Source: a bacterium
GTDB lineage: Bacteria > Armatimonadota > Zipacnadia > Zipacnadales > UBA11051
Direction: 5' to 3'
Assembly: GCA_021372615.1 (NCBI GenBank)
Contig: JAJFUB010000123.1
Location: 1 to 47,189, forward strand
Length of the DNA stretch: 47,189 nucleotides
Part shown: positions 1 through 45,672 of the stretch, one piece after another
Layout of the letters: the number at the start of each line of letters is the position of its first letter
How positions within the stretch are numbered: the stretch's first letter is position 1
The notes under the pieces: generated by a model
Database searches by the model: none
What the model was told of the DNA's origin: nothing
Seen by the model: only the letters and a program-made list of their open reading frames with translations
Position numbers and translations under genes: made by a program

Positions 1-13
1 GGCCTGCCCGAAT

Positions 14-42
14 GCGCGCGTGGGGACACGCGCGCCCACGCG
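14..42. repeat. Palindromic repeat, family A, single arm
   Basis: This 29-base unit contains a perfect 9-base inverted repeat, GCGCGCGTG (14-22) and CACGCGCGC (27-35), followed by CCACGCG. The same 29-base unit occurs twice, as an inverted pair, at 45587-45615 and 45635-45663, with one base different (position 23 here). It lies downstream of the minus-strand FAD oxidoreductase and could also end its transcript. The window edge prevents seeing whether a partner arm exists to the left. Confidence 0.7.
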
Positions 43-90
43 ACAACCACTTCGTCCACGCGGCAAACGCTTCGTCCACGCGGCAGCCAC
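31..90. repeat. Three 20-base tandem units
   Basis: Bases 51-70 and 71-90 both begin with TTCGTCCACGCGGCA and differ only in their last five bases. Bases 31-50 are a more diverged copy (cccacgcgacaaccac). The period is 20 bases. The first unit overlaps the end of the family A palindrome. The array sits just after the stop codon of the FAD oxidoreductase on the minus strand and codes for nothing recognisable. Confidence 0.6.
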
Positions 91-18353: not shown

Positions 18354-20897
18354 ATGTCCGACCACCGTCTCCACCTGATCTGCAACGCACATCTCGACCC
18401 CGTGTGGCTGTGGGAATGGGAGGAGGGCGCGGCCGAGGCCATCTCCACCTTCCGCGTCGCCGCCGACCTGTGTGAGGAGTTCTGCGCTCGCGGGCGAGCG
18501 CCTGGCTTCGTCTTCAACCACAACGAGGCGGTGCTCTACGAGTGGGTCGAGGAGTACGAGCCGGCGCTGTTCAAGCGCATCCAGCGGCTCGTGAAGCAGG
18601 GCAAGTGGCACATCATGGGGGGCTGGTTCCTGCAGCCGGACTGCAACATGCCCAGCGGTGAGTCGTTCGTGCGGCAGGCGCTGTACGGGCGGCGGTACTT
18701 CCGGGACAAGTTCGGCGTGCGCCCCACGACCGCCCTGAACTTCGATCCCTTCGGCCACAGCGTGGGCCTGCCCCAGATCCTCGCCAAGTCGGGCTACGAC
18801 TCGTATCTCTTCTGCCGGCCGGGCCAGGAGGACTGCCCGCTGCCCGCCGCGCAGTTCGAGTGGGTTGGCTGCGACGGCTCCAGCGTCCGCGCGGTGCGCA
18901 TGGTCCACTATAACTCCCCCCTGGGCCAGGCCCGCCAGAAGGTCGAGAACCTCGCGCCCCAACAACCTGCGGACAAGCCCGGCCTCATCCCCTGGGGCGT
19001 CGGGGATCACGGCGGCGGGCCGTCCCACGACGACGTGCAGGCCCTGCAGGCGCTCATCCGGGAGCGCCCGGACCTGAAGATCGTGCACTCGACGCCCGAG
19101 GCCTACTTCGCCGAGCTGGCCGCCTCCGGGGCGAAGCTGCCCCGACACGACCGCGACCTGAACCCCTGGGCGGTCGGCTGTTACACCTCGCAGGTGCGCA
19201 TCAAGCAACTCCACCGGCGGCTGGAGAACGACCTGTACAGCCTGGAGAAGATGGCCTCGGCGGCGTGGCTGGCCGGGCTGATGGCATACCCCGCGGAGGA
19301 GATGAGGCCGGCCCTACGCGACCTGCTGCTCTGCGAGTTCCACGACATCCTCCCCGGATCGTCCCAGCAGCAGGTCGAGGAGATGTCCCTGCGGGTGCTC
19401 AGCCACGGCCTCGAGATCGTCTCGCGCCTGAAGGCCCGCGCGTTCTTCGCGCTGGCCGCCGGGCAACCCACAGCGAGGGCCGGCGAGATCCCGATCATGG
19501 TCTACAACCCACACCCCTTCCCGGTCCGCACCACGGTCGAATGCGAGTTCCAGCTCGCTGACCAGAACTGGCAGGATGCCTTCACGCTGCCGACGGTCTA
19601 CCAGGGCCGCAAAGCCCTGCCCTCTCAGCCCGAGAAGGAACTCAGCAACCTCAACCTGGACTGGCGCAAGCGCGTGGTGTTCGACGCCGTGCTGCAGCCC
19701 TCGCAGATGAACCGGTTCGACTGCAAGCTGCAGAGCCTGCCGGCCAAGCCTGCGCCGGGCGACTACCTGCAGGGCGAGGCCCTGGTCGTCAAGACAGACG
19801 ACCTGGAAGTGCATGTGAGCACGCAGACCGGCCTGCTCGACTCGGTTCGCGTGGGTGGGGCGGAGGTGGTCGGACCGGGGGCGGGCGAGCCGCTGGTGAT
19901 GCAGGACAACGAGGACCCGTGGGGCATGAGGGTCCACGGCTTCAACACGCTGACGGGGCGCTTCAAGCTGCTCTCCCCCGCTGCGGCGGCGCGCCTGGCC
20001 GGGGTCCACGCCAAGTCCCTCGCGCCCGTGCGTGTCGTCGAGGACGGCGCCGTGCGCGTGGTCATCGAGGCGCTCTTGGGCTACCGCAACTCGTTCATCT
20101 GCCAGCGCTACAAGATCCCGAAGGCCGGGACCGAGGTGGAGATCGAGACGCGGGTGCAGTGGGCGGAGAAGGACCAGATGGTGAAGCTGCAGGTCCCCTG
20201 TCGCGTGGGTGGGCGCCGGGACGCGCCCACACCTGCGGGTTCGGGGACGCACCCGCCCGCGCGGTTCGTCGGCCAGACGGCCTTCGGGGCCTATGCTCTG
20301 CCCGACAGCGGCGATGAGGCCGTGTCCCAGAAGTGGGTTGCCGTTGTCGGCGACGAGCAGGCCCTGACCTGCATCAACGACGGCACCTACGGCTCCAGCT
20401 ATGCCGACGGCCTGCTGCGCCTGACGCTGTTGCGTTCCGCGGCCTACTCGGGCCACCCCATCGGCGACCGGGAGATCGTGCCTCAGGACCGCTTCACCCC
20501 GCGCCTCGACCAGGGCGAGCGCCTGTTCCGGTTCTGGCTCAACGCCGGGCCGACACAGGAACGCCTGGCCGCCGTGGACCGCGAAGCGCTCGTCCACAAC
20601 GAGCGCCCCATGGCGCTCTCGTTCTTCCCGTCGGGGGCGGGAGACAAGCCCGGCCCGTGTGCGCTGCTGAGCGACGAGGCTGTCCAGGTGACGGCCCTGA
20701 AGCGGTCCGAGGATGGCCGGCGCCTCATCGTCCGCCTGTTCGAGCCTACGGGGCAGAAGCGGACGACGACGCTGAGCCTTCCGGCCCTGGGCCTCAAAGC
20801 GAGGCTGCGCTTCACCCCCTTCGAGGCGAAGACGCTGGCGGTGGACCCGAAGTCGGGCTTCTTCAGCTCAGTGAACCTCATGGAGGAGGAGCCGTGA
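18354..20897 (+). CDS. GH38 alpha-mannosidase, cytoplasmic
   Basis: An 847-residue zinc-dependent retaining alpha-mannosidase. The N-terminus carries the family zinc site NAHLDPVWLWEWEEG (His13, Asp15); NFDPFGHS contains Asp131, the nucleophile and third ligand; GVGDHGGGPSHDD contains the later His (His219). The helical middle domain (NDLYSLEKMAS, LLLCEFHDILPGSS) and the large beta-sandwich C-terminal half are intact. No signal peptide is seen. An unusual stretch, residues 619-637 (GGRRDAP...THPPAR), is encoded by two DNA hairpins and interrupts a beta-sandwich region, suggesting an inserted repeat. The stop codon overlaps the GTG start of the MttB-like gene (GTGA), so the two are translationally coupled. 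Confidence 0.95.
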   Translation: MSDHRLHLICNAHLDPVWLWEWEEGAAEAISTFRVAADLCEEFCARGRAPGFVFNHNEAVLYEWVEEYEPALFKRIQRLVKQGKWHIMGGWFLQPDCNMPSGESFVRQALYGRRYFRDKFGVRPTTALNFDPFGHSVGLPQILAKSGYDSYLFCRPGQEDCPLPAAQFEWVGCDGSSVRAVRMVHYNSPLGQARQKVENLAPQQPADKPGLIPWGVGDHGGGPSHDDVQALQALIRERPDLKIVHSTPEAYFAELAASGAKLPRHDRDLNPWAVGCYTSQVRIKQLHRRLENDLYSLEKMASAAWLAGLMAYPAEEMRPALRDLLLCEFHDILPGSSQQQVEEMSLRVLSHGLEIVSRLKARAFFALAAGQPTARAGEIPIMVYNPHPFPVRTTVECEFQLADQNWQDAFTLPTVYQGRKALPSQPEKELSNLNLDWRKRVVFDAVLQPSQMNRFDCKLQSLPAKPAPGDYLQGEALVVKTDDLEVHVSTQTGLLDSVRVGGAEVVGPGAGEPLVMQDNEDPWGMRVHGFNTLTGRFKLLSPAAAARLAGVHAKSLAPVRVVEDGAVRVVIEALLGYRNSFICQRYKIPKAGTEVEIETRVQWAEKDQMVKLQVPCRVGGRRDAPTPAGSGTHPPARFVGQTAFGAYALPDSGDEAVSQKWVAVVGDEQALTCINDGTYGSSYADGLLRLTLLRSAAYSGHPIGDREIVPQDRFTPRLDQGERLFRFWLNAGPTQERLAAVDREALVHNERPMALSFFPSGAGDKPGPCALLSDEAVQVTALKRSEDGRRLIVRLFEPTGQKRTTTLSLPALGLKARLRFTPFEAKTLAVDPKSGFFSSVNLMEEEP
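20205..20260. repeat. Two-hairpin GC-rich segment inserted in the GH38 gene
   Basis: TGGGCGC (20210-20216) pairs with GCGCCCA (20223-20229), and GCGGGT (20235-20240) pairs with ACCCGC (20251-20256). The segment encodes a Gly/Arg/Pro-rich stretch with no counterpart that I recall in GH38 proteins. GGGACGCGCCCAC here resembles part of the family A repeat arm. It is probably a palindromic element captured in frame, but less clear than the one at 21580. Confidence 0.45.
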
Positions 20898-22456
20898 GGG
20901 TTGCCTACCCGCAGTACACGCCGCGTGTCACGCCGGAGATGATGGCCGAAGTGCGGCAGACGGCCACGCGGCTACTCGCCGAGGTCGGCTTCGTCGTCGA
21001 GCACGAACGCTTCCTGGACCATCTCCGGGGGCGCCCTGGCCTGAGATTCGGCGGCCAGCGCGTGTACTTCGACCCGGCGCTGAGCAATGAGTACCTGGAC
21101 CGCCACGTGGCCGACCTGCGCCGGTCACTACTGGCAGGGGACAGGGCTGCCGGGGCGGCCACACAGGGGGAGGAGCTCGCCCTGGCTGCGTCCGGCTCCA
21201 CGCGGCAGGACTGGACCCTCGCCATCGCCGGCTACTCCATGGCCCTGCTCGACCCCCGCACCGACGAGGTGCGGGAAGCCACGTGCGACGACCTGCGGGA
21301 CTGCATCAAGCTAGCCCGCTCCTTCGGCATCGGGGGCATGTACCCGCTCATGCCACAGGATGTGCCGCCGCTGCTGCGCACGCTCGCGTGCTTCCGCGTC
21401 TGCTGGGAGAGTGCCGACAACATCGAGCCCTATGACTACCAGCAGCCCGAGCAGGTCCCGTTCCTGCTGGACATGCACCGCCTGATGGGCAAGCCGATGG
21501 ACATCACCTTCACGGTGCCCACGGCGATGACCCTGGACGCGCGCGACCTCGATATCTTCCTGTCAGTGTATCCCTTGTGGAATGGTACGCCCGACACTCC
21601 TGTCGGGCGCGGGGCGCCCGAGCGCCCGACAGGAGTATCGGGCGTACCATTCAACTGGCGCATCCTCGACTACGGCATGCTCGGTATCACGAAGCCTTGC
21701 AGCGCCCTCGGCTGCGCCACCATGCAACTGGCCGAGTCGCTGGCGGTGCACATGCTGCTGAAGCTGTTTGATGACACCGTCGAGGCGCCGCTGATCATGA
21801 CCGCCGGGCAGCCCACCGACTTGCGCCATGTCTGCTGGGCTTTCGGCTCGCCGCGGCGGCATGTCTTCTCGCACGTGAACTCCTGGCTGGCCCCGGCGCT
21901 GTGCGGCCTGGAGCCCGAGGAGTATGTCGTGGCGGGGGTGCTTCTGGAGACGGCTTCAGCGGCCACCGACGAGCAGGCGGCGCTCGAGAAGATGGCGTCG
22001 GGGCTGCTCGGGGCCCTGCAGGGCGCGCGACACTTCGGCTATGCGGGTGTGCTGTGCGTGGATGACCTCTTCAGCCCGACGCAGTTCGTCATTGACGTGG
22101 AGATGGTCGCCTACCTCCGGGAGCTGATTGAGGCCTTCGACCCCCCTCCCGACCTCCTCGCCCTCGACGGCCTGTACGACGAGTGCCGCGAGGTCGGTCT
22201 GGGCCTGGATACGTTCCTGTCACATCCCCACACCGCGCGCCGCTGCCGCAATGTCATGCCCTCCTCCGACCGCCTCGTGCGCGAGAAGCTGCGTTCGTGC
22301 CTGGCACACCACCGGACACTAAAGGACCGAGCGCGAGACGAGGCGCTGGAGAGGATCGCGGCGTGTCCGGAGTTCGTGCTCGATGAAGCGAGGCGGGAAG
22401 GCCTGGCGAGGATCTACGCCGAGGCGGAGAAGGCGCTCGGAGGGGCCGGCTACTAG
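20894..22456 (+). CDS. MttB-like corrinoid methyltransferase homologue, no pyrrolysine
   Basis: A 520-residue member of the trimethylamine methyltransferase (MttB) superfamily, whose characterised relatives move a methyl group from quaternary amines to a corrinoid protein. Landmarks are ARSFGIGGMYPLMPQDVPP, LDYGMLGITKPCSALGCATM and FGYAGVLCVDDLFSPTQF. There is no in-frame amber codon before the final one, so it is of the non-pyrrolysine type and its substrate is unknown. No corrinoid protein gene is present. GTG at 20894 overlaps the mannosidase stop (GTGA) and GGAGGAGG precedes it. Residues 229-253 (WNGTPDTPVGR...GVSGVPF) are encoded by a 73-base palindrome and look inserted between FLSVYP and NWRILDYG. 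The last codons (AGY, then TAG) lie in another palindrome. Confidence 0.88.
   Translation: MRVAYPQYTPRVTPEMMAEVRQTATRLLAEVGFVVEHERFLDHLRGRPGLRFGGQRVYFDPALSNEYLDRHVADLRRSLLAGDRAAGAATQGEELALAASGSTRQDWTLAIAGYSMALLDPRTDEVREATCDDLRDCIKLARSFGIGGMYPLMPQDVPPLLRTLACFRVCWESADNIEPYDYQQPEQVPFLLDMHRLMGKPMDITFTVPTAMTLDARDLDIFLSVYPLWNGTPDTPVGRGAPERPTGVSGVPFNWRILDYGMLGITKPCSALGCATMQLAESLAVHMLLKLFDDTVEAPLIMTAGQPTDLRHVCWAFGSPRRHVFSHVNSWLAPALCGLEPEEYVVAGVLLETASAATDEQAALEKMASGLLGALQGARHFGYAGVLCVDDLFSPTQFVIDVEMVAYLRELIEAFDPPPDLLALDGLYDECREVGLGLDTFLSHPHTARRCRNVMPSSDRLVREKLRSCLAHHRTLKDRARDEALERIAACPEFVLDEARREGLARIYAEAEKALGGAGY
21580..21652. repeat. 73-base palindromic element inserted in frame, family C
   Basis: Two 30-base arms, 21580-21609 and 21623-21652, are inverted copies with a single mismatch and flank a 13-base loop. 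The outer part reads GAATGGTACGCCCGA and the inner part CTCCTGTCGGGCG. The plus strand translates as NGTPDTPVGR...RPTGVSGVPF inside the MttB-like protein. The minus strand, in one frame, gives almost the same peptide (NGTPDTPVGRSGAPRPTGVSGVPF split across the loop). This behaviour matches that of Rickettsia palindromic elements, although the sequence is unrelated as far as I can tell. Confidence 0.85.
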
Positions 22457-22533
22457 CCGGCCCGCCGTCATGGGCCTGCGCTGCTCGGTGACACACGCTG
22501 TCAACGCCGGGCCGGCTGATAGCCGGCCCCTCC
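22439..22533. repeat. Composite palindrome over the stop codon, family B
   Basis: The left arm (22439-22470) and right arm (22501-22533) are inverted copies with a few differences. Each arm is itself a palindrome around GGCCGGCT-n2-AGCCGGCC. The TAG stop codon of the MttB-like gene (22454-22456) lies in the centre of the left arm. The element fills nearly all of the 92 bases between two convergent genes and could also act as a bidirectional terminator. The arrangement resembles paired REP elements. Confidence 0.75.
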
Positions 22534-45529: not shown

Positions 45530-45586
45530 GGGTCTCCGTGATCCGCAGTGACGTGTCGCGTGTCGCACGCTTCCCGAGCCGCGTGT

Positions 45587-45663
45587 CGCGTGGGCGCGCG
45601 TGTCCTCACGCGCGCAACCTCCGCGGCCAACGTCGCGCGCGTGAGGACACGCGCGCCCACGCG
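45587..45663. repeat. 29-base perfect inverted repeat pair, family A
   Basis: The arms 45587-45615 and 45635-45663 are perfect inverted copies around a 19-base loop. Each arm contains GCGCGCGTG and CACGCGCGC around AGGA (or its complement), so each arm also folds on itself. A third copy with one mismatch lies at 14-42. Before it, CGTGTCGCGTG occurs twice (45552-45592 region). It fills most of the gap between the second MttB-like gene and the YkgJ-like gene, both on the minus strand. Confidence 0.85.
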
Positions 45664-45672
45664 GACCGTGGC

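Follow-up and report, generated by a model that had tools for sequence, protein, structure and literature searches.

A GTAC-tagged REP family in an Armatimonadota genome, with an in-frame copy in an MttB-like gene

The 47,189-nucleotide stretch of DNA analysed here (the window) carries a gene for an MttB-like protein of the trimethylamine methyltransferase superfamily whose reading frame runs straight through a palindrome. From the sequence alone, this palindrome had been described as an insertion of about 25 residues, similar in behaviour to the palindromic elements of Rickettsia, that would encode nearly the same peptide on both strands and that had no known counterpart in this type of organism. 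Several questions follow from this description: what kind of element the palindrome is, whether it belongs to a mobile family, and how it came to be read as part of a protein.

The palindrome and its host protein

An inverted-repeat search of the window confirmed the palindrome at 21580-21652 as a real inverted repeat, and the open reading frame of the MttB-like gene stays open throughout it. The arms stretch to 34 nt with 94% complementarity (21577-21610 and 21622-21655, with 11 nt between them). The palindrome folds stably both as single-stranded DNA (-42.2 kcal/mol) and as RNA (-67.6 kcal/mol), in each case with a z-score of about -10 against dinucleotide shuffles. Each arm is also a hairpin by itself, in which GGTAC is followed by GCCCGACA-CTCC-TGTCGGGC, and the palindrome as a whole consists of two 25-nt REP units in inverted orientation (Table 1). 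The conserved repeat core of this copy covers 65 nt (21584-21648), with one change from the family consensus across the 50 nt of its two units. The outer GAAT/ATTC bases are private to the MttB copy, which is the sole one among 18 simple pairs to have four matching outer bases. A search of the window against Rfam gave 0 matches.

Table 1. Features of the MttB-like gene and its repeats, in window coordinates
Feature	Position	Strand	Remarks
MttB-like gene (trimethylamine methyltransferase superfamily) carrying the insert	20894..22456	+	Pfam PF06253, E 2.7e-18; orthologues 46-60% identity
Whole palindrome with outer bases private to the MttB copy	21577..21655	.	
REP unit 1, GGTACGCCCGACACTCCTGTCGGGC	21584..21608	+	exact consensus
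Spacer between the two REP units	21609..21623	.	15 nt; most inverted pairs 13-16 nt
REP unit 2, inverted, GGTACGCCCGATACTCCTGTCGGGC	21624..21648	-	one mismatch
Different palindromic repeat at the 3' end of the MttB-like gene, GGAG-GGGCCGGCT-act-AGCCGGCCC	22439..22468	+	
Inverted partner of the GGAG-tagged repeat	22504..22533	-	

The host ORF is 520 codons long from its GTG start and belongs to the Pfam MTTB family. The palindrome is read in frame as W229-NGTPDTPVGRGAPERPTGVSGVPF-N254, no stop interrupts the gene at any point, and the sequences on either side of the insert are conserved. Orthologues from the same family and order (43-56% local identity) read YPDWKKHRD-INFRILDY where the window protein reads YPLW-NGTPDTPVGRGAPERPTGVSGVPF-NWRILDY, and the named orthologue records include one from a Candidatus Zipacnadia bacterium, Zipacnadia being a class of Armatimonadota; the window genome probably lies near this class. 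Rather than all carrying the same residues, the orthologues are without the insert, and alignment shows a gap at this position. The gap is not a clean 25 residues from W229 to F253, since about six loop residues of the orthologues (QKHRDI/KKHRDI) have no counterpart in the window protein and the net gain is 18 residues.

The insert probably sits in a loop, with a helix before it and a strand after it. This position is suggested by the alignment, by the homologues PDB 2qne and 9yce, whose alignment likewise shows a short loop at the insert position, and by the predicted secondary structure (helix 216-229, coil, strand 254-258), which is weak and agrees with a loop. A structural model of the protein, with only two usable relatives and a mean pLDDT of 32.6, is too poor to place the loop.

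Copies across the genome and its relatives

The genome containing the window comprises 6.41 Mb in 171 contigs. Searching it with the repeat gave 107 alignments, and the pattern GGTACGCCCGACACTCYTGTCGGGC, with up to three mismatches, gave 117 matches genome-wide compared to 0 for the reversed control, so the arms are not unique to the MttB-like gene. We read the surroundings of 61 clusters, which hold 115 of the ~117 units. The consensus, GGTAC-GCCCGACA-CTCY-TGTCGGGC, is a tagged hairpin with an 8-bp perfect stem and a 4-nt loop. Its 25 positions are conserved at 94-100% (94-99% per position for the GGTAC tag across 115 units), except for a loop base that is C or T (68/32), and the flanks are random. 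Of the clusters, 26 are singlets and 18 are simple inverted pairs, while the other 17 form arrays or are arranged in other ways, and a tag-outward inverted pair is present in 31 of the 61. By this anatomy of a tagged hairpin, dispersed copies and inverted pairs, the GTAC element is a REP that also forms REPINs.

Genes were called with a simple finder of our own, for which long ORFs from the repeat loci served as the training set. These calls place 57 of the 61 clusters outside genes: 37 between co-directional genes, 15 between convergent genes, 3 between divergent genes and 2 at contig ends. The remaining 4 are inside genes. Coding sequence makes up ~91% of the sampled DNA (binomial P ~1e-52 for no more than 4 of 59 clusters inside), and insertion or survival must therefore be strongly biased against genes; the family behaves as a REP that occasionally hits them. 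When 15 close co-directional gene pairs were checked by Pfam, no recognised domain was split across the REP, and as far as tested the intergenic copies are thus not hidden gene disruptions. Intact neighbours around intergenic REPs include glyQ-glyS, encoding glycyl-tRNA synthetase alpha and beta, and argJ with an amino-acid kinase gene. An ArgJ protein (L006 1839-3185) has an extra alanine/proline/glycine repeat run (PAASAGPAI...) mid-protein, which breaks its Pfam match into two stretches.

The intragenic copies are all in frame and lie in the MttB-like gene, a DNA methyltransferase, an ABC permease and selB. All four are found at gaps relative to orthologues of relatives, which date the inserts only at 45-90% identity and with boundaries that are not at base resolution. 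In the N4/N6 DNA methyltransferase (C27), the insert SGTPDTPVGRMAQEAGQECPAYL faces a clean gap in the relative G001, where the two flanks are 72% and 66% identical, and members of the order differ in the length of this site. The second hairpin of this copy keeps its pairing through two amino-acid-changing differences, GCCGGACA/TGTCCGGC. The MalG/UgpE-type ABC permease (C135) contains three REP units, which G001 is without at 73% identity, while SelB (C50) has ~24 residues that are missing from G001, here the nearest relative and 88% identical just upstream. The selB insert (L033 9422-9495) is one GTAC unit joined to a GTAG-tagged hairpin of another family, GTAGGGCGGGG...CCCCGCCC. At other sites, too, GTAGGGCGGGG stands immediately before several GTAC singlets. 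The expectation of a mobile palindromic family with many copies, some of them in frame within genes and absent from orthologues, is borne out by these ~117 units and their four intragenic cases. At the same time, there is no general excess of intragenic palindromes in this genome. A sample of 20 stretches of 20 kb, taken irrespective of repeat content (~352 kb once masked bases are excluded), held 2 strong intragenic palindromes compared to 5 in codon-shuffled genes, and the idea of a genome-wide wave of intragenic palindromes was discarded.

The proposed symmetry of the encoded peptide stands only in part. The opposite strand of the MttB palindrome does read NGTPDTPVGR, but this is automatic for near-perfect palindromes, because palindromy gives the same peptide in either orientation. 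The forward unit is translated as GTPDTPVGR in three of the four genes, while the inverted units are translated as RPTGVSGVP, GQECPAY, PDKSVGRT and RQECRAYP, using all three frames, with GQECPAY and RQECRAYP sharing one of them. We therefore rejected the symmetry as a designed feature and regard it as a by-product of palindromy.

A search of 61 genomes and an order-wide search showed that the GTAC unit is essentially confined to the window genome. The identical hairpin occurs with a GTAG tag in G023 and in G126. The latter, from another family of Armatimonadota, has 13 matches, and the single locus inspected carries an inverted pair. In G033, the identical hairpin occurs with GGAG/GGGG (about 33-37 matches). 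The GTAC family resembles the GTAG REPs and REPINs in its tagged short hairpin, dispersed copies and inverted pairs (Bertels and Rainey, 2011, PMC3116915; Di Nocera et al., 2013, PMC3733652). GTAG and CGTC REPs have been described in >80 species, between co-directional and convergent genes, and those inside ORFs encode 20 to 30 residues and include RPE-4 and RPE-6 of Rickettsia conorii (Di Nocera et al., 2013, PMC3733652). The sites and the occasional in-frame copies seen here are similar, although the tag differs from that of the GTAG superfamily.

The Rickettsia palindromic elements RPE-1, RPE-4 and RPE-6 are likewise palindromes of mobile origin that are read in frame in proteins (Delihas, PMC2229807; PMC3733652), and a review of such in-frame elements notes that Rickettsia guanylate kinase stays active despite its insert (Delihas, PMC2229807). 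The elements nevertheless differ in sequence and tag, as RPE-4 and RPE-6 are CGTC-tagged; RPEs have been described as 105-146 bp long, and intragenic copies are a small minority here. The GTAC hairpin groups instead with the GTAG- and GGAG-tagged REPs of other Armatimonadota and is not a Rickettsia palindromic element. In-frame intragenic REPs in non-rickettsial bacteria were reported in 2013 from other phyla (PMC3733652), so the lack of precedent suggested by the sequence-only reading applies more narrowly, to Armatimonadota. This phylum is unmentioned in that REP survey (PMC3733652), and our literature search found no relevant report linking it with palindromic repeats. The kind of element is thus known, but the GTAC REP represents a new family in a new phylum, with an unusual tag, and it extends tagged REPs and their in-frame protein copies to Armatimonadota.

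Movement and maintenance of the intragenic copies

We consider it likely that the MttB copy is a REPIN tolerated as an in-frame passenger, with a RAYT working in trans as its most likely means of movement. A RAYT (HUH/Y1) transposase would have acted on the hairpin in its single-stranded form and mobilised the REPIN, two inverted units of the GGTAC-tagged short hairpin repeat, and one copy would have inserted in frame into the helix-strand loop of the MttB-like gene. It may have been kept because it brings no stop in the frame used, maintains the frame and lengthens a loop that tolerates extra residues. The encoded peptide would then be a passenger without selected function, and the insert is presumably neutral. 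The four clear inserts, including the one with two REP families in the conserved factor SelB, could be removed to probe this neutrality.

Of the Y1 transposases in the window genome, seven in all, two resemble IS200 and five resemble RAYTs (two of these five above the NCBIfam cut-off), and the presence of RAYT-like genes makes RAYT mobilisation of the GTAC REP plausible. Unlike in typical REPtrons and the GTAG superfamily, no RAYT here is flanked by a GTAC REP: in the 6-kb surroundings of the seven Y1 genes, none was found within 1.5-3 kb of any RAYT/Y1 gene. GTAG-tagged hairpins of a different family do lie near two Y1 genes. These are GTAG-CCACGGGC-NNNN-GCCCGTGG and variants, which surround the IS200-like Y1 of C56 and also lie next to the C146 RAYT (L102 2601-2690, 3284; L106 3546), and it is possible that they represent a REPtron of another family.

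Some observations speak against a RAYT-moved passenger. Cleavage by TnpA-REP is guided by the tetranucleotide tag in vitro, and an engineered GTAC tag blocked or shifted cleavage by two RAYTs, abolishing it for the Stenotrophomonas enzyme and moving it to GA or GT for the Marinomonas enzyme (PMC8266576); here, GTAC is the natural tag of ~117 units. In addition, some MttB loop residues were also lost, and no compared relative offers a near-identical flank with an empty site.

A related proposal is that the family tag changed from GTAG to GTAC in the window lineage, with a matching change in the RAYT, and that the accompanying loss of the tag's amber stop left most REPINs open in six frames and tolerated in genes more often. 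In all six frames, 19 of the 31 inverted pairs are stop-free, compared to 5% of shuffles, and swapping the tag to GTAG in silico leaves 0 of 31 open. In the frame actually used, however, a GTAG tag would add no in-frame stop in any of the four intragenic copies, so six-frame openness does not explain them. Tag-guided cleavage also predicts GT or GA dinucleotides next to the tag, and across 91 outer flanks neither was enriched at any fixed offset. We regard this proposal as unlikely; if true, it would show that the guide of a HUH transposase had been retargeted in nature. The GTAC family, beside identical GTAG hairpins in relatives, provides a natural test of tag-guided TnpA-REP cleavage.

Four in-frame insertions in unrelated genes, the GTPDTPVGR reading shared by three of them and the six-frame openness of the inverted pairs could also point to a protein invader akin to the Rickettsia elements, with its frame and symmetry under selection. 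This is improbable, given that only 4 of 61 clusters are intragenic, that the inverted units are read in different frames and that an open GTAC tag is not needed in the frames used. It is likewise improbable that the gene retains the hairpin for its effect as an RNA element, such as slowing ribosomes or setting the stability of the operon mRNA. The stable RNA fold and the pairing preserved in the methyltransferase copy would fit such a role, while the MttB orthologues are without the hairpin and an identical hairpin is found elsewhere in unrelated contexts. Moreover, a relative has the compensated variant in full and other family copies have one half of it, so the variant may have been inherited with the element.

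It is very improbable that the MttB-like enzyme has co-opted the insert as a functional loop. Although the gene is open to its end with conserved flanks, its inserted peptide is simply what the repeat consensus encodes, apart from one change in 50 nt, and shows no sign of selection at the protein level, and the orthologues do without it. A fold-back chimera, finally, might be suspected in a metagenome assembly of 171 contigs, as assembly artefacts can produce palindromes. The 61 clusters occupy distinct unique contexts, with arrays and singlets built from one unit, and related families are present in independent assemblies, which makes an artefact so unlikely as to be almost negligible. A REPIN tolerated as a passenger is the reading that we prefer.

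Other palindromic repeats in the genome

The GGAG-GGGCCGGCT-NNN-AGCCGGCCC copy at the 3' end of the MttB-like gene supplies its last codons and its TAG stop, and more copies of this repeat are present in loci L007, L019, L026, L097 and L104. A third palindromic family, GCGCGCGTGRGGACACGCGCGCCCACGCG, is found at window positions 13-45, 45578-45618 and 45632-45672; it has 20 matches in 427 kb of window-genome loci, with one pair inside a called gene (L097 5477-5516). Another GGAG-tagged family, GTGGGAGCGGTCACCGACCGCGAC, is abundant, with 18 matches in the ~352 kb not chosen for repeats, and is also in frame inside genes (L013 14094-14157; L168 13251-13302 and 15512-15563).

An FGGY sugar kinase (L029, gene 1321-2991) has two separate inserts that are absent from orthologues, at 1588-1663 and at codons 349-379. 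One of these is palindromic, and the peptide of the other recurs at four further places in the genome. An inverted pair of the GTAGGGCGGGG family lies in frame at L086 1463-1517, inside a called gene (833-1897).
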